A stretch of DNA of 64,000 nucleotides from Acidobacteriaceae bacterium (GTDB taxonomy: Bacteria; Acidobacteriota; Terriglobia; Terriglobales; Acidobacteriaceae): assembly GCA_030041045.1 (NCBI GenBank), contig JASHOQ010000038.1, forward strand, positions 62,001-126,000, read 5' to 3'. The notes beneath the pieces were generated by a model. It did no database searches. It saw only the letters and a list, made by a program, of their open reading frames with translations, and was not told where the DNA came from. Below are positions 11,163 to 18,994 of this stretch, in pieces. Position numbers and translations under genes: made by a program. The stretch's first letter is position 1; every line of letters starts with the position of its first letter.

Positions 11163-14069
11163 ATGGAGACCAATCTCCTGAATCGCGTGCAGGCAACGCT
11201 GTTGGCCCTGGCCACAGCCGCCCTGTTCGTGTTGGCGATTTTCAATCTCCAGCAGGAGCGGCAGACCCCGCTGCCTGACGATGGCATCTGGTGGCACGAG
11301 GTTCCCGGCGGCCTCCAGGCGGACAAGGTCCTCCCCGATAGTGCGGGCCAGCGCGCCGGCATCCAGGTCCATGACCTGTTAACCGGGGTGAGCGATGGAC
11401 CAGCGGCGCCGGTCAATACGGTGCATCGGCTCGCAGACCTGGAGCGGATGCTGTTCAGTACCGGCCCTTACGGGCAGATCTACTACGTCATTACCCGCGA
11501 CGGCATTCGGCTCGACACGCCCATCAAGGTGATTCCCGACGCCGCTGACCAGAGCCTTCCGCTTAGCCTGCGCGTGATCGGTCTCATCTACCTGATCATC
11601 GGCTTTTACGTCCTCTTCCGCCGCTGGGGTGCGCCCCGGGCCACTCACTTCTATCTTTTCTGCCTTGTTTCTTTCGCGTTGTACGCGCTCAAGTACACCG
11701 GCCAGTTCGACGCCCTCGACTGGACCGTCTTCTGGGCCAACGTCGCCGCTGAAGCCCTGCAGCCGGCGCTCTTCCTGCACTTTGCCCTCAGCTTTCCCGA
11801 GGAGCGCTTCAAGAGCCTGAACCGCCGCTGGTTGCTGCCGCTGGTCTATGCGCCGGGTGCAGCGCTTTTTGGATTGTGGCTGTGGTCCATCTCCACGCGC
11901 GAGGCCACCAAGCTGCTCCTCGACCGGATCAACCAGGTCGCAGTCGCCTACGATGCTCTCTTCTATGTCTGGGCTGCGCTGCTGTTCCTGATGAGCTATC
12001 GGGCCGCCGACACGCCGCTGCTGCGCCAGCAGTTGAAATGGGTTACGCGGGGAACCCTGCTGGCGGTAGTGCCCTACACGGTCTACGCCGTCGTCTATCT
12101 TTCCGGCATGCGCCTGCCCAGCCTGCTTGAAGACCTGGCCGGCCTCTCGCAGATCTTCCTGCCCCTCACCTTCAGCTGGGCCATCGTCCGTTACCGGCTG
12201 ATGGACACCGACCTGATCTTCAAGCGCAGCGTAGCCTACATGCTTTCCACGGGCCTCATCGTCGGCGGCTATTTCGGGATCATCGCCCTGATATCCGTCT
12301 GGGTGCACAATGCCATGCCGGAGGCAGTGCGGGAGTGGGGCCTGGTAGCCGCCATCGTCATTACCGCGGCCATCTTTGACCCCCTCAAGCGGCGCATCCA
12401 GGGCTGGGTCGATCGCGCCTTCGACCGCCATCGCTACGATTATCGGCGCGCGCTGATCGAATTCGGCCGCGGTCTCAGCTCGGAAACCAATCTCCAGGCG
12501 CTGCTCAACTCCATCGTGGAGCAGTTGCCGCGCACGCTGCTGGTGGCGCGCGTCGCCGTCTTTCTCAATCAGGATTCGCACATGCGCCTGGCTGTTGCGC
12601 ACGGTCTGCCGGAAAAACTTAGCGTTGGCGGCGCAAATGCCGAGCGGCTCGATCTCGGATTTCTCGATTTCGACCTCGATCGCGGCCATCGGCATATCTT
12701 CTTTGAGAACGCCCAGGCTGCGCTGCATCTGCCGGAAAGCCAGAAGCGCACTGCCGCTTTGCTCGATCTGAACTACTATCTGCCCTGCCGCGTAGCCGTG
12801 GGCGAACTGCCTTCGGGCTCGCCGGCCACGCGCACCATCGCCGTGATCGGCCTGGGGCGCACGCTGGGCGGCGATTTCCTTTCGAGCGAAGACGTGGAAC
12901 TGCTCGAATCGCTGGCCAGCTACATCGGCATCGCTTTACAGAACGCCAGCCTCTATGCGCGCCTGGAGGAACAGATCGGTGAATTCGAGCGGCTCAAGGA
13001 ATTCAACGAAAACATCGTTGAGTCCATCAACGTGGGCATCTTCGCCATCGATCTCAACGACCGCATCGAGAGCTGGAATGCGCAGATGGAGGCCATGTAC
13101 GCTTTCAGCCGCGCCGAGGCTCTCGGCCGCGAGCTGCGCTCCGTGTTCCCCGCGCAATTGATCGACGCGGTCGACGGTTTCCGCAACGAGCAGGGCGTGC
13201 ACCATCTCTACAAGTTTCCGCTCACCACCCGCGCCGGCGAGCAGCGGACCACCAACATCGCCGTGGCCCCGCTGCTTTCGCGCGATTTTGTCCCTGTGGG
13301 CCGCATCGTGCTGGTGGACGATATCACCGAGCGGGTGACGCTCGAGGCCCAGCTCACACAGGCTGACAAGCTGAGCTCCATCGGCCTGCTGGCCGCCGGC
13401 GTAGCCCACGAGATCAACACCCCGCTCGCCGTGATTTCTTCTTATGCGCAGATGCTTTCCAAGCAGCTCCGCGGCGACGGGCGAGCCGACGACCGGCTGG
13501 GGCCGGTGCTGGACAAGATTACGCAGCAGAGCTTCCGCGCCGCCGAGATTGCCAACGGCCTGCTCAACTTTTCGCGCACCTCTTCCACCGAATTTCGCTC
13601 CACCGATCTCAACCAGGTCATCCGCGACACGCTTTCGCTGCTCGAGCACCAGTTCAAGACCGCGCAGATCGCCATCGAGCTGGAACTGGCCGAAGATCTG
13701 CCGCTCATCCATGGCAACTCCGGCAAGCTGCAGCAGGTCTTTCTTAATCTGCTGCTCAACGCCAAAGACGCCATGCCTGCCGGAGGGCGCCTGCGCGTGG
13801 CCACGGCGATGAACGGCCATGTGGAAGCCCTGGTAGCGGACTCCGGCGGCGGCATCGCGCCCGAGCATCTCAAGCGCATCTACGATCCCTTCTTCACCAC
13901 CAAAATCACCTCCAGGCCCGGCGACCGGCGCGGCACGGGACTGGGGCTTTCCGTCTCCTACGGCATCATTCAGGAACACGCCGGCAAGATTCATGTGGAG
14001 AGCGCAGTGGGCGCAGGCACAACGTTTCACCTTGAATTTCCCCTGCTGAGGAACTCCGTACATGTCTGA
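11163..14069 (+). CDS. Multi-domain membrane sensor histidine kinase (PDZ-TM-GAF-PAS)
   Basis: 968 residues. Order: N-terminal membrane helix (12-28); PDZ-like module (about 45-125, LQADKVLPDSAGQRAGIQVHD); about eight membrane segments (135-400); GAF-like domain (about 440-600); PAS (about 605-720, IVESINVGIFAIDLNDRIESW); HisKA with the phospho-accepting His749 in GVAHEINTPLAV; and an HATPase with N box NAKDAMPAGG, DSGGGIAPEHL and GTGLGLSVSYG. It overlaps the response-regulator gene by 8 bp, so they form a cognate pair. A PDZ module on the outer side suggests sensing of peptides or protein ends in the envelope (inference). The signal is unknown. Confidence 0.92.
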   Translation: METNLLNRVQATLLALATAALFVLAIFNLQQERQTPLPDDGIWWHEVPGGLQADKVLPDSAGQRAGIQVHDLLTGVSDGPAAPVNTVHRLADLERMLFSTGPYGQIYYVITRDGIRLDTPIKVIPDAADQSLPLSLRVIGLIYLIIGFYVLFRRWGAPRATHFYLFCLVSFALYALKYTGQFDALDWTVFWANVAAEALQPALFLHFALSFPEERFKSLNRRWLLPLVYAPGAALFGLWLWSISTREATKLLLDRINQVAVAYDALFYVWAALLFLMSYRAADTPLLRQQLKWVTRGTLLAVVPYTVYAVVYLSGMRLPSLLEDLAGLSQIFLPLTFSWAIVRYRLMDTDLIFKRSVAYMLSTGLIVGGYFGIIALISVWVHNAMPEAVREWGLVAAIVITAAIFDPLKRRIQGWVDRAFDRHRYDYRRALIEFGRGLSSETNLQALLNSIVEQLPRTLLVARVAVFLNQDSHMRLAVAHGLPEKLSVGGANAERLDLGFLDFDLDRGHRHIFFENAQAALHLPESQKRTAALLDLNYYLPCRVAVGELPSGSPATRTIAVIGLGRTLGGDFLSSEDVELLESLASYIGIALQNASLYARLEEQIGEFERLKEFNENIVESINVGIFAIDLNDRIESWNAQMEAMYAFSRAEALGRELRSVFPAQLIDAVDGFRNEQGVHHLYKFPLTTRAGEQRTTNIAVAPLLSRDFVPVGRIVLVDDITERVTLEAQLTQADKLSSIGLLAAGVAHEINTPLAVISSYAQMLSKQLRGDGRADDRLGPVLDKITQQSFRAAEIANGLLNFSRTSSTEFRSTDLNQVIRDTLSLLEHQFKTAQIAIELELAEDLPLIHGNSGKLQQVFLNLLLNAKDAMPAGGRLRVATAMNGHVEALVADSGGGIAPEHLKRIYDPFFTTKITSRPGDRRGTGLGLSVSYGIIQEHAGKIHVESAVGAGTTFHLEFPLLRNSVHV

Positions 14070-15507
14070 GGTCGCATTTCCCTTGAACGCGCCCGTCTCC
14101 GCGAGCGGCACCAATGGCAGCGCCAGCACCGCCAACATCCTGGTGATCGACGACGAGGCCAGCATTCGCGAGTCGCTCGAAGTGCTGCTCTCCCTCGAGG
14201 GCTACTCCACGGTGACCGTCGGCGATGGCGCCGAGGGCCTGCGGCAGCTCGAAGTGGATACCTTCGATCTGGTGCTGCTCGATCTCGCCTTGCCCGGCCA
14301 GAGCGGCCTGGAGCTGCTGCCGCTGATTCGCGAGCGCCAGCCCGAGCTGCCGGTCATCATGATCACCGCTTACGGCACCGTGGACAACGTGGTGGAAGCC
14401 GTGCGCGCCGGCGCGGAAAACTTTGTGCAGAAGCCGTGGGACAACGAAAAGCTTCTTGCCGATATCCGCTCCGCCGTGGCCCGCCATCGCGCCGAAGAGG
14501 AAAATCTCCAGCTCAAGCGCGCCCTCAAGCAGCGCTACAACTTTTCCAACCTCGTGGGCAAAAGCGAATCCATGCTGCGCGTCTTCGACCTGGTGGCGCA
14601 GGTTGCGCCCAGCCGGTCCACGGTGCTCGTCCAGGGCGAGAGCGGCACCGGCAAGGAGCTCATCGCCAAAGCCATTCATGCTAACTCGCCGCGCCGCGAT
14701 AAGCCGTTCGTGCCCGTCAATACCAGCGCCGTGCCGTCGGAACTGCTTGAGTCCACGCTTTTCGGCCACGTCAAAGGCGCGTTCACTTCGGCTGTCGCTT
14801 CCAAGAAAGGTCTATTCGAAGTAGCCAACGGCGGCACGCTGTTTCTTGACGAGATCGCCACTATGGGCCTGGACACGCAGGCCAAGGTCCTGCGCGTGCT
14901 CCAGGACCGCCGCTTCATGCATCTCGGCGGCGTGCAAGAGATTCAGGTGGACGTGCGCATAATCGCCGCCACCAACGTGGATCTGCGCCAGGCCGTGCGT
15001 GAAGGCAAATTCCGCGAGGATCTTTTCTATCGCCTCAATGTCATCACCGTCGATCTGCCGCCTTTGCGCGCCCGCCGCGAAGACGTTCCCCTGCTGGCCC
15101 AGCATTTCCTCGACTACTACACCGCCGAGAACGGAGTGTCCGCGCGCAAGCTCTCCGCTGATGCCCTGCGCGCGCTGGTCGATTACGACTGGCCCGGCAA
15201 TGTGCGCCAGCTTGAGAATGCCATCGAGCGCGGCGTCGTGCTCTCCTCCGGACCCATCATCGGCGCCGACCTGCTCCCCGGCGAAATCACCGGCCGCAGC
15301 TTCCAGAATGCGCTCCTCGATCACAATCCCAACTCTTCGCTCTTCGACATTCTCGAAGTCATCGAGCGCCGCATCATCATCGAGAAGCTGGAGCGCTGCA
15401 ACTGGAACCAGACCGAGGCCGCCGAGCAGTTCCGCATCCCGCTCTCCACGCTCAACCAGAAGATCAAGCGCCTCAACATCGAGATTCGTAAAAGGGGCAG
15501 GGAATAA
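14062..15507 (+). CDS. NtrC-family sigma-54-dependent response regulator
   Basis: 481 residues. Receiver domain with phosphorylation site Asp74 (LVLLDLALPG) and acidic pair in LVIDDEASIR; AAA+ domain with Walker A GESGTGKE (192-199) and Walker B GGTLFLDEI; a C-terminal Fis-type helix-turn-helix (NQTEAAEQFRIPLSTLNQKI). The sigma-54 contact loop reads GAFTSA rather than the usual GAFTGA. The ATG lies inside the kinase gene's end (8-bp overlap), so the two are co-translated. It should activate sigma-54 promoters on phosphorylation by the adjacent kinase; targets are unknown, possibly its own operon. Confidence 0.95.
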   Translation: MSEVAFPLNAPVSASGTNGSASTANILVIDDEASIRESLEVLLSLEGYSTVTVGDGAEGLRQLEVDTFDLVLLDLALPGQSGLELLPLIRERQPELPVIMITAYGTVDNVVEAVRAGAENFVQKPWDNEKLLADIRSAVARHRAEEENLQLKRALKQRYNFSNLVGKSESMLRVFDLVAQVAPSRSTVLVQGESGTGKELIAKAIHANSPRRDKPFVPVNTSAVPSELLESTLFGHVKGAFTSAVASKKGLFEVANGGTLFLDEIATMGLDTQAKVLRVLQDRRFMHLGGVQEIQVDVRIIAATNVDLRQAVREGKFREDLFYRLNVITVDLPPLRARREDVPLLAQHFLDYYTAENGVSARKLSADALRALVDYDWPGNVRQLENAIERGVVLSSGPIIGADLLPGEITGRSFQNALLDHNPNSSLFDILEVIERRIIIEKLERCNWNQTEAAEQFRIPLSTLNQKIKRLNIEIRKRGRE

Positions 15508-15513
15508 ACTCGC

Positions 15514-16323
15514 TCACTTCGCCGCTTCCAGCCACATGCGCAGAAATCTCCGCAACTCTTCGGGCGGCTTAAGCCATACATCGGCGTTCGTCTTGCGCAG
15601 CGCGCGCCGCACCAGTACGCTCAGGCCGCGGCCCTTCATGGCCGCAAAGGCCGTCTCGTCGGTGATGTCGTCGCCCAGGTAAGCCGCGGGAATCTTCGCC
15701 GTTCCGTTGACTCCCAGCTCATCGAGGATCGCCTCGACCGCACCGCCTTTGTCGCGGCCCGTGCGCAGTTCCAGCCCGCACTCGAAATCGAGCAGTTGCA
15801 GGCCATCGCTTGCGGCCAGCGGCTCGAACAGCTCCCGAGTCCGCTTCTCGATCTCTCGTGCCTTGCGCGGCGCCATCCCCCGCCAGTGCATCACGGCCGC
15901 GTTCGGCTTCTCTTCAAAAAGGCCGCCGAAGGCATTGCCGCGCAGCTTTGCGCTCACGGCATCCAGCTTCGCGCGCGCGGCTTCCGTCGGCGGCTCCATC
16001 TCGCGCCGGCCGTCCGGACGAAGCCGCTCGGCGCCGTGCAGCCCCCACACCGTTGGCGGCATCTCCAGGTCGAGCAGGCCCACCACTTCCGCCGCTGGCC
16101 GGCCGCTAATCACTTCGATCCGCGTTTTTTTCTGGCTTTGGATGTGGTTCAACAGTTCTCGGACACCCGCCCACGGCGCGGCCTTGAACCGGTCCACGCG
16201 AAACGGCGCCAGGGTGCCATCGTAGTCGAGCAGCAGAAGGGAGGATGCGGCGCCGGCAAAGCGCCGAAAGAATGCATGGAGTCTAACTTCCGCGCCGTGC
16301 GTCAACCTGTGCTCGCCTTCCAC
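15514..16323 (-). CDS. otsB: Trehalose-6-phosphate phosphatase
   Basis: 269 residues of the HAD superfamily, dephosphorylating trehalose-6-phosphate to trehalose. Motif I LLLDYDGTLAPF (Asp33 and Asp35) and the late motif YLGDDITDETAFAAMKGRG, which supplies the magnesium-binding aspartates, are present. VISGRPAAEVVGLL and VWGLHGAERL are typical of OtsB. The gene lies 25 bp downstream of the trehalose-6-phosphate synthase gene, so the two steps of trehalose synthesis form one operon. It converges on the NtrC gene with 6 bp between the stops. Confidence 0.93.
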   Translation of the reverse strand: MEGEHRLTHGAEVRLHAFFRRFAGAASSLLLLDYDGTLAPFRVDRFKAAPWAGVRELLNHIQSQKKTRIEVISGRPAAEVVGLLDLEMPPTVWGLHGAERLRPDGRREMEPPTEAARAKLDAVSAKLRGNAFGGLFEEKPNAAVMHWRGMAPRKAREIEKRTRELFEPLAASDGLQLLDFECGLELRTGRDKGGAVEAILDELGVNGTAKIPAAYLGDDITDETAFAAMKGRGLSVLVRRALRKTNADVWLKPPEELRRFLRMWLEAAK

Positions 16324-16348: not shown

Positions 16349-18661
16349 TCAGGAAACGGAGAGGGATTCGGAACGGTTCACGTCCATATCCTCCGCATCA
16401 TCCAGCCGCAGCTCGCGCAGATCGCCCAGCACGCTTGCGGCCCACAGGTAAATGTTGTGTTCCATCACCTGCCGCCGCATGCGCTGCATTCGCTGCCGCC
16501 GGTCCGCGCGGCTCATCTCCAGGCCGGCGCGGATGGCCTCGGCCGCGGCACGCGAGTCGTATGGGTTCACAATCAGCGCGTCCCGCAGCTCCACCGCCGC
16601 TCCGGTGAATTTGCTCAGCACCAGAACTCCGTCCTCATCGTCGCGCGCGGCCACGAATTCCTTCGCCACCAGGTTCATCCCGTCGTGCAGCGAAGTGACC
16701 AGGCACAGGTCGGCAGCCTGATACCAGCGCCTGACCTCTTCATGATTGCACTGGCGCTCGATCAGCACCACCGGCTTCCAGTGCGCCGTCTGGTAGCGCC
16801 AGTTGATCCGCTCCACGGCCTCTTCCACGCGCGCGCGCAGGTCAGCGTAGCTAGGAATGCGCGTCCGGCTTGGGGCCGCAATCTGCGCAAGTGTCAGCCG
16901 TTCGCGATAGTAGGGATGCTCCTCGAACAGCTGCTCCAGTGCCATCAGCCGCTCCAGGATTCCCTTGGTGTAATCCATGCGGTCCACGCCCAGCGCCAGC
17001 TGATCCGCGCGCACGCCAAACTCGCCCAGCAGGCTGCGGCGCTCGTGAGCGCGCCGCTCCTCCTCCGCACCATCGTCGTTCCCTGCGCCCACATGCGGCA
17101 CGCCCTCGAACGCCACGCTGATGGGATGCGGGCGCACGGTGGTGAAATGCCCGCGCCGGCTTACGGTCATGTGTTCGCGATCGGTTCGCGATTCCAGCAC
17201 GCGATCCACGGTGGCCAGAAAATTGTGGCAGTGCAGCGGAATGTGAAAGCCGAGTAGGTCGGCGCCCAGCAGTCCGTCGAGCAGCTCGGCCTGCCATGGG
17301 CAGATGCCGAATGCCTCGGGATTCGGCCAGGGGATATGCCAGAAGATGGCCACACGCGCATCCGGCCGCGCCCTTTTGAGCAACCGCGGCAGCAGCGCGA
17401 AATGATAGTCCTGCACAAACACCACCGGCTCTTCGCTGGCCGCCATTTCTTCCAGCACCGCATCGGCGAAACGCTGGTTCACATGCTGGTAGCACTCCCA
17501 GTCGCCGGCGCGGAAGATGGGCCGCGTGTATGCAATATGGCACAGGGGCCACAGGCCTTCGTTGGCAAAACCGTCGTAGTATTTTGACTCCTCCTCGTCT
17601 GTAAGCCAGACTCTGCGCAGGCTGTAACGCGGCTCGTCCGGCGGCACGCGCAAGCGGTCGAATTCGTCCACCACAAGCTTGTCGGCATCGCCGCTCCCGC
17701 CCGCCACCCAGACCCCGTCGCAGGCGCGCAGCACCGGCTCAAGGGCCGTCACCAGTCCGCTGGGAGGCACTGTCCAGACGATTTCCCGGCCCTTGCGCGA
17801 ATGCACGTACGGCTCGCGGTTTGAAACCACGAAGATACGGCTCGATCCGGCGCGATCGCGCATGTGCACGGCCAGGCGTTCGGCGGTCCACCAGTGTTCG
17901 CCGGCCTCGCGCAGCCGCGCTTCGGCTTCGGCGGCGGCGCGCGCGGCCTTCAGGCTCTCGGCCATGGTCTCCACTTCGTGCGCCAGCGGCGAAAACAGGC
18001 TCAACTCCGCCGCGCCCGGCTTCGCCGTTTTTTCTGCGTGGCCCGTTCGCAGGTGGCGCAGCCGTTCCGTCACCCTCTTCATGGGGCGGGTCAGGAACCA
18101 GCCAACCATCCCCATGGTGATGGCCACAATGAGAATCACCAGCGCCAGCACCCGCCAAAAGCTGCGCTGCCACAAGTCGACGTCCTGCTCGTGGATATAA
18201 CCGGCGTCCACCAAGATGGTCATTCCACCTATCAATTGGCGGCCATCATGGATGGGAAATACCTCCTCCATCCAGCGCCAGTTTCCGGTGTGGCCAAAGG
18301 CGCTCAGCTCGGTGCCCTTTTCCAGCGACTTGCTGGTCACGCCGCGTCCCAGTGCCTGAATTACCTCGCTCGGACCTGCGCTGCCCAGCACGTGGCCGCG
18401 TACATCGTAGACCACAATTCCCAGTGCGCCCGTTCCCGCTTTCAGCAGCTGCGTTACACCCGCGAGCGCACTCGGGTCGCCAGCCGCAAGCGGACCCTGC
18501 ACATCCGGCTCGATGCTGATGCCCATCCATTTCGTCCGGTTTTCGAGTTCCTGCCGCAGGGCGTGCCGGTGCGCCAACACGTCGAAATACGTAGAGGCTA
18601 TGGAAACGATCGTCACGCTTGCGATCAGGGCGAGGATCAGCCGCATGCGGAACAGATGCAT
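16349..18661 (-). CDS. otsA: Membrane sensor-HAMP-trehalose-6-phosphate synthase fusion
   Basis: 770 residues, far longer than free OtsA (about 470). Residues 7-27 are a membrane helix; 30-165 form an extracytoplasmic sensor-like region; 170-190 are a second helix (LALVILIVAITMGMVGWFL); 191-245 fit a HAMP linker (TRPMKRVTERLRHL); a coiled coil follows. From about 275 on is the GT20 synthase: FVVSNREPYVH, VQDYHFALLP, FWHIPWPNPEAF, VDRMDYTKGILERL and SLHDGMNLVAKEFVAAR, covering the UDP-glucose and glucose-6-phosphate sites. This is kinase-like sensor architecture with a metabolic enzyme as output. ATG 18661 has GGGGG 5 bp upstream; ATG 18673 and GTG 18715 are alternatives. Confidence 0.92.
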   Translation of the reverse strand: MHLFRMRLILALIASVTIVSIASTYFDVLAHRHALRQELENRTKWMGISIEPDVQGPLAAGDPSALAGVTQLLKAGTGALGIVVYDVRGHVLGSAGPSEVIQALGRGVTSKSLEKGTELSAFGHTGNWRWMEEVFPIHDGRQLIGGMTILVDAGYIHEQDVDLWQRSFWRVLALVILIVAITMGMVGWFLTRPMKRVTERLRHLRTGHAEKTAKPGAAELSLFSPLAHEVETMAESLKAARAAAEAEARLREAGEHWWTAERLAVHMRDRAGSSRIFVVSNREPYVHSRKGREIVWTVPPSGLVTALEPVLRACDGVWVAGGSGDADKLVVDEFDRLRVPPDEPRYSLRRVWLTDEEESKYYDGFANEGLWPLCHIAYTRPIFRAGDWECYQHVNQRFADAVLEEMAASEEPVVFVQDYHFALLPRLLKRARPDARVAIFWHIPWPNPEAFGICPWQAELLDGLLGADLLGFHIPLHCHNFLATVDRVLESRTDREHMTVSRRGHFTTVRPHPISVAFEGVPHVGAGNDDGAEEERRAHERRSLLGEFGVRADQLALGVDRMDYTKGILERLMALEQLFEEHPYYRERLTLAQIAAPSRTRIPSYADLRARVEEAVERINWRYQTAHWKPVVLIERQCNHEEVRRWYQAADLCLVTSLHDGMNLVAKEFVAARDDEDGVLVLSKFTGAAVELRDALIVNPYDSRAAAEAIRAGLEMSRADRRQRMQRMRRQVMEHNIYLWAASVLGDLRELRLDDAEDMDVNRSESLSVS

Positions 18662-18994
18662 CAATACCCCCATTGTGCGGTTAGATGCAAGCAAGCGCCC
18701 GAGGGTCCGCCCCACCTGGCGTCGCCGCGCGGAATCTTCTTCATTTTGAAGGTGATCGGGAGACGGCCTTTTCCACAGTTATCCCCCTTTTACAATGTTC
18801 TCCCGGGGTCCGGGGAATCGCCGGCGAATCGGGGAACAAATTGCGGAAGTTACGGTCTCTTCCCCGGGCTTGCCTACTCGAAGAATCACTCCGGCGCGCC
18901 CATTCCGGCCTTGCATCCCGCCTCATCCGGCTGCATGCGCTATCCTGTCCTCGGAAGCGCCGCACACTCCAGATTCGGCAGGCCGGCACACGCG
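18662..18994. other. Divergent promoter region of otsA and mlaE
   Basis: 333 bp without a convincing gene. TACAAT at 18791-18796 is a fair -10 box for the plus-strand mlaE operon; a good -35 is not visible. TTTTCCACA at 18769-18777 differs in one position from a DnaA box (TTATCCACA), but stands alone. Confidence 0.4.

Follow-up and report, generated by a model that had tools for sequence, protein, structure and literature searches.

The locus and its neighbourhood

The window, which is the whole 64,000-nucleotide stretch of Acidobacteriaceae DNA that was analysed, carries on its minus strand, at 16349..18661, the gene for a trehalose-6-phosphate synthase fused to a sensor-type front part, as delimited from the list of open reading frames and by aligning its start region to those of relatives. 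The frame is open from 16349 to 18715 (788 codons, or 788 aa when read from a GTG), and the ATG at 18661 (MHLFRMRLIL...), at which a preceding sequence-only reading had placed the end of the gene, is also the start used by close relatives, giving a protein of 770 aa. A start inside the GT20 domain, which that reading had named as one way in which its proposal could fail, was excluded by this alignment, as the relatives share the ATG at 18661. A chance open reading frame was likewise ruled out, because the window protein and its 33 relatives (together the 34 sequences of family alignment A1, in which L019 is cut by its contig end) can be aligned along the chain, with dN/dS values of about 0.1-0.3 in the front part.

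The chain begins with a first membrane helix (TM1), continues with a periplasmic single-Cache domain and a second membrane helix (TM2), and leads by way of a divergent HAMP-like linker and a further helix into a complete GT20 domain. Combining GT20 with two TMs in a single chain, the protein holds ~270 residues ahead of the enzyme (the sequence-only reading had estimated about 250), which begins at residue 275. It represents the only GT20 match in its own 5.2 Mb genome, and neither HisKA nor HATPase was found in it using Pfam.

The trehalose-6-phosphate phosphatase gene, otsB (15514..16323, minus strand; PF02358 E 1e-18, TIGR00685 over its cut-off), follows 25 bp downstream on the same strand and encodes the only PF02358 match in the genome; as had been read from the sequence alone, OtsB adjoins the fused synthase and the two genes likely share an operon. 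Of the 41 loci assigned to the two-TM class (see below), 27 have a downstream trehalose-phosphatase match in the orientation of the synthase gene, and three have one on the opposite strand only, two of these being weak; no phosphatase was found in the downstream DNA examined at nine loci, and two are without downstream DNA. Beyond OtsB, a histidine kinase (GAF/PAS) and an NtrC-type response regulator, both identified using Pfam, are encoded convergently on the plus strand (11163..15507); they are reported as neighbours, with membership not claimed, and a homologue of the NtrC-type regulator recurs in five of the seven MAG loci (L032, L033, L034, L037, and L038). Upstream of the fused gene, Pfam identified a divergent MlaE permease and an ABC ATPase.

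The notion of an only trehalose route in the cell was rejected, given that the genome also contains TreS and TreY matches over their cut-offs, both with gaps: the TreS match is in two pieces at contig ends, and that to TreY (928.6 bits; G000:C127:6897-9524) has one TAG inside. OtsAB is therefore probably not the sole route to trehalose. The inner TAG of the TreY frame reflects either a disrupted gene or a sequence error.

The membrane helices and the predicted sensor

Two membrane helices separated by ~135 residues were predicted by hydropathy, in agreement with the membrane helix, extracytoplasmic sensor-sized region, and second helix described by the sequence-only reading. TM1 (18584..18640, minus strand; residues about 8-26) falls within the model helix 2-60 and TM2 (18119..18175, minus strand; residues about 163-181) within a continuous model helix of residues 154-206, while the short N-terminus ahead of TM1 and the stretch behind TM2 are both positively charged by charge count. 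Between the two helices lies a predicted periplasmic single-Cache (PDC) sensor (18197..18583, minus strand; residues 27-155). AlphaFold2 modelled the whole chain with a mean pLDDT of 82.5 (pTM 0.65) and residues 1-257 with a mean pLDDT of 77.2 (pTM 0.57), in the order of a long helix, the Cache core (63-152), the second long helix (154-206), a low-confidence connector (~207-223), a further helix, and the GT-B fold.

The window protein missed the Pfam sCache_3_2 cut-off (16.7 bits against 28.4), and this family was matched in four of the 34 family sequences at E 0.01. When PDB sequences were searched with a profile of the front part, the matches were all weak, to ‘4D2’ entries (E 0.005), which we take to be designed proteins, and then to a histidine kinase (E 0.013). 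A fold search was therefore used for the sensor, with Foldseek also run. The best solved match of the predicted sensor was WalK (4ywz_B; Z 15.6, 2.6 A over 133 aa), and further matches were obtained with CitA (Z 13.7) and DcuS (Z 12.8). As modelled, the predicted sensor is a single Cache fold held between two TMs.

The HAMP-like linker and its kinase ancestry

The segment behind TM2 (17927..18109, minus strand; residues 185-245) corresponds to a HAMP linker in both position and pattern, with model helices at 154-206 and 224-256 and a layout of a first helix containing P193, a connector at about 207-223, and a second helix containing E229. The sequence-only reading had named it a HAMP or HAMP-like linker and had listed the lack of a HAMP match among the outcomes that would speak against its proposal. 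As far as Pfam is concerned, such a match is indeed lacking: none to HAMP (PF00672) was returned for the window protein at E 1 or for any of the 34 family sequences at E 0.01, and the NCBIfam matches of the window protein were weak, to the kinases CreC (E 2e-5) and DpiB (E 0.03). The linker is therefore called HAMP-like here, and its homology was tested by profile-profile comparison, for which groups A and C were aligned together. In this comparison, which answers the lack of a Pfam match, residues 185-245 matched the 11 HAMPs of the same genome with an hhalign score of 34.1 (Prob 78, P 2e-6), as against at most 9.2 for 40 column-shuffled versions; six other segments of the front part gave at most 18.2 against the same HAMPs, the one with that score overlapping the HAMP and the other five reaching at most 9.8.

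Further evidence came from a family of kinases (L039, L040, and L043) that matches residues 1-253 (hhalign Prob 99.6, E 2e-23); in both of the members examined with Pfam (L040 and L043), HAMP, HisKA, and HATPase domains were identified. The front module is thus of histidine-kinase-type ancestry, and with its two TMs, its Cache fold, and this homology, the histidine-kinase-type sensor front end with a GT20 output that had been proposed from the sequence alone is supported. P193, the AS1 proline, is invariant in all 26 rows of alignment A2, three kinases included. In the group-B subfamily (represented in the alignment by 11 of its 15 tree sequences), HAMP was not recognisable by profile either (best score 11.0), and classical HAMP signalling is therefore not universal in the family; the group-B front end is homologous to the other front ends (Prob 99.2). 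The linker helix into the enzyme (17849..17914, minus strand; residues 250-271, with a model helix at 260-271) contains a WTAERL motif, the W258 of which is invariant in alignment A1.

Occurrence, selection, and phylogeny

Out of 297 Acidobacteriota genomes, 111 contain a match to the window protein and 186 are without any match. The GT20 frames were classed by hydropathy and length (129 frames in 128 loci, with five fragments dropped and 124 kept), and a two-TM front was assigned to 41 of the 124, comprising 34 frames in 31 of the 297 genomes and seven MAG loci. The other classes comprise eight frames with about ten TMs, 23 with a C-terminal extension of 262-312 aa, and 52 with neither. These labels rest on a hydropathy threshold, such that ‘soluble’ denotes fewer than two predicted TMs, and the 23 ‘TPP-fused’ frames were read from the length of the C-terminal extension alone; L014 is counted as two-TM with most of its sensor gone, and L045 is counted as ‘soluble’. 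In L045 (G074:C19), the sensor and the enzyme are found in two overlapping frames, owing either to a frameshift in the gene or to an error of assembly. In the window's own genus, 26 of 36 genomes contain one frame that matches the family model nearly end to end. The contig scan that yielded the seven Acidobacteriaceae MAGs detects close relatives only. Among plasmids, none of the 354 records matching the window protein and none of the 359 matching the group-B protein covers 80% of the respective protein, and the front part alone was without any match. As the survey comprised Acidobacteriota genomes, close-relative MAGs, and plasmids, restriction to the phylum is not claimed.

When the window protein was compared with seven relatives, dN/dS ranged from 0.10 to 0.24 for the Cache part in six of the seven comparisons (the seventh being not estimable), from 0.09 to 0.32 for the TM2-HAMP part in all seven, and from 0.06 to 0.14 for the catalytic part, again in all seven. 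Judged by these rates, the front part is under purifying selection, which together with the 34-sequence alignment disposes of an unconserved N-terminus, another way in which the sequence-only reading had envisaged its proposal failing.

A tree of the GT20 part was computed from 126 rows, namely the 124 frames, E. coli, and Aminobacter, with the fragments L134 and L136 left in. All two-TM and ten-TM rows fall within one clade of 72 rows (SH-aLRT 100, quick method), which also holds 23 ‘soluble’ rows, with E. coli OtsA and the TPP-fused rows lying outside. The two-TM label requires five changes on the tree, at least four of them forced by well-supported branches; given that the subfamilies have homologous front ends, an early gain followed by later losses would be as likely as repeated gain. 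The ten-TM front ends were identified by Pfam as Na+/H+ exchangers (PF00999) in all four tested of the eight so labelled, and by TM count the exchanger-GT20 fusion occurs in eight of the 297 genomes (L068 in G054, L069 in G028, L070 in G183, L071 in G116, L072 in G088, L076 in G175, L077 in G014, and L079 in G151). These fusions speak for the view that this GT20 clade is generally linked to the membrane; by way of ion transport, the link may perhaps extend to an osmotic theme.

Two Aminobacter plasmids (Alphaproteobacteria) carry a trehalose-6-phosphate synthase gene next to one for amylo-alpha-1,6-glucosidase (L057, 3782-5599; L150, 1962-3782). The synthase of L057, with a single N-terminal TM by eye, nests inside the acidobacterial fused clade in the tree, which suggests gene transfer between phyla. 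In L014 (G201), a fused form, most of the periplasmic domain is missing and the two TMs stand close together; it constitutes a natural sensor-deletion variant that is useful for comparison.

Receptor or membrane anchor

The reading that we favour, and consider probable, is that the window protein is a one-component transmembrane receptor whose output is trehalose-6-phosphate synthase. It builds on the architecture, the homology to kinase sensors, the kept active site (described below), the conservation, the purifying selection, and the operon-like neighbour, all of which the analysis established; dimerisation, the direction of the switch, T6P as the product, and the stimulus are suppositions that would go with it.

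An alternative is that the kinase-derived front end only anchors the enzyme, so that trehalose would be made at the inner membrane and close to transporters or to targets in the envelope, with no regulation by the front end. Given the sensor loss of L014 and the single-TM Aminobacter enzyme, some members do look like mere anchors, and the absence of a recognisable HAMP in group B is in line with this, as are the Na+/H+ exchanger fusions, in that the GT20 clade tolerates quite different membrane partners. A Cache fold of ~130 residues under purifying selection, however, exceeds the needs of an anchor, and the invariance of P193 throughout alignment A2 and the HAMP pattern that emerges from groups A and C when aligned jointly also argue against it. 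Anchoring alone is hence regarded as unlikely.

The catalytic domain and its probable product

The enzyme that the favoured receptor would control, the GT20 trehalose-6-phosphate synthase domain (16415..17839, minus strand; residues 275-749; Pfam E 2e-119), covers positions 2-472 of the 473 in the PF00982 profile, with 399.8 bits against a curated cut-off of 32.5. The OtsA of Mycobacterium thermoresistibile is both its nearest solved sequence (E 5e-95) and its nearest fold (5jio, TMt 0.89), with trehalose-6-phosphate synthases being the closest folds. Nineteen positions were compared with E. coli OtsA using active-site labels, and 15 of them were mappable as labelled; position 40 was dropped (the label W40 misfits E. 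coli itself) and position 338 is unlabelled. All 15 mapped positions are identical (R9, G22, Y76, W85, D130, H154, R262, K267, R300, D361, M363, N364, L365, V366, and E369), bearing out the earlier statement that the GT20 core keeps its main substrate motifs, and two active-site positions are changed in the window protein (G21 to S and R341 to H). Equivalents of several of those residues are named in a study of mycobacterial OtsA (PMC6879718).

The curated cut-off of the OtsA equivalog model (TIGR02400) was missed by the window protein (430.1 bits against 564.85), and the protein is therefore filed as GT20, with T6P as the product that its sequence would suggest. The positions associated with donor preference are mixed (I594, C638, and E642, against Leu319, Val363, and Glu367 of the mycobacterial enzyme). 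Both the missed cut-off and these mixed positions could be read as signs that the enzyme makes another product, such as glucosylglycerol phosphate, or takes another donor, so that the chain would not serve trehalose control. Such a role is improbable in the light of the higher score of the OtsA model over that of glucosylglycerol-phosphate synthase (430 against 318 bits), the kept acceptor and donor residues, and a neighbour that is a TPP over its cut-off and the sole PF02358 match in the genome.

The proposed mechanism

On the receptor reading, the periplasmic Cache domain would bind a ligand or feel the state of the envelope, presumably as a dimer, like the kinases to which it is related. 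The resulting movement of TM2 would be relayed via the divergent HAMP-like linker and the signalling helix to the N-terminal GT20 lobe, and, with this GT-B lobe moving during catalysis, the rate of T6P synthesis could thereby be altered, the adjoining OtsB then converting the product to trehalose. The presence of the HAMP-like linker apart, every step of this scheme is one that we infer. The N-terminal lobe of mycobacterial OtsA is more dynamic than its counterpart, and alpha-1 undergoes a large movement in catalysis (PMC6879718); a helix joined directly before the first strand is therefore well placed to control the lobe. Osmolarity, drying, and the cell wall are guesses as to the stimulus, and the resemblance of the sensor to WalK, CitA, and DcuS favours no single signal. 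In another acidobacterium, Granulicella sp. WH15, high-sugar conditions upregulated a set of proteins that includes TreS and an OtsA, whether fused or not (PMC7074687); at the level of expression only, this agrees with an osmotic role.

Several observations were counted against the receptor reading, including the tetramer contacts of mycobacterial OtsA, which are not conserved beyond that group (PMC6879718), the patchy distribution with 186 genomes lacking a match, the ‘soluble’ forms among fused ones in the tree, the other candidate trehalose routes in the genome, and the nine loci at which the phosphatase was not found. Signalling in the reverse direction, whereby GT20 would report intracellular G6P or T6P via the linker to the periplasmic domain or a partner protein, has a parallel in the Arthrobacter OtsA proposed as an osmotic stress sensor with an assembly promoted by T6P (PMC5685639), but is most improbable for a chain with its active site kept, OtsB adjoining, and no partner candidate identified.

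Beyond the receptor reading of the single protein, a broader proposal may be put forward, which we hold with more reserve and consider possible: that a GT20 clade in the Acidobacteriota has repeatedly been hard-wired to membrane signal or ion modules, such that conditions outside the cell would determine T6P flux in a matter of seconds, bypassing transcription, phosphorelays, and second messengers; this would amount to a class of receptors with a bulk metabolic enzyme as their output.

Relation to known systems

The window protein resembles the OtsA of Mycobacterium thermoresistibile (5jio) and of E. coli in its catalytic fold, active-site residues, and OtsB partner. Those enzymes, presumably soluble, are chains of 474-487 aa, whereas the window protein adds ~270 N-terminal residues in the form of a transmembrane sensor module. 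With the Cache-HAMP kinases (L039, L040, and L043, and the fold relatives WalK, CitA, and DcuS), it has in common the TM1-Cache-TM2-HAMP-helix order, homologous over 253 residues, but its output is GT20 in place of HisKA-HATPase and its HAMP has diverged below Pfam detection. Kinases and cyclases are familiar outputs of such sensors, and HAMP-linked one-component enzymes exist in the form of receptor adenylate cyclases and GGDEF/EAL receptors, which make second messengers. The principle of HAMP-coupled catalysis would be the same, whereas the output of the window protein would be the bulk synthesis of an osmoprotectant.

Accounts of how bacteria control trehalose synthesis usually centre on gene expression. 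They also invoke metabolite allostery (PMC6879718). The Arthrobacter OtsA ties the enzyme to osmotic sensing, through a self-assembly promoted by T6P and with no membrane receptor in the abstract of that study (PMC5685639). Among the titles listed from largely open-access literature, a description of a TPS-HAMP or TPS-exchanger fusion was not found. The parts are known and their pairing, recurring in Acidobacteriota, is apparently undescribed, the sequences themselves probably residing in public databases under plain TPS names.

If the receptor reading is true, a receptor with its own T6P synthase output would constitute a post-translational, one-protein response to osmotic or envelope conditions. 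The sensor-GT20 chain suggests that an outside signal could directly set the production of protective trehalose, which may partly account for how this phylum, widespread in soil, tolerates drought and osmotic stress. A second test of trehalose synthesis coupled to membrane events is offered by the exchanger-GT20 fusion, and the sensor-fused form would be a genetically simple system for learning how HAMP modules drive unrelated enzymes. The window's own genome also contains two open frames of 800 and 1436 aa (G000:C97 and G000:C36, respectively) with six HAMP matches each, which are poly-HAMP proteins.
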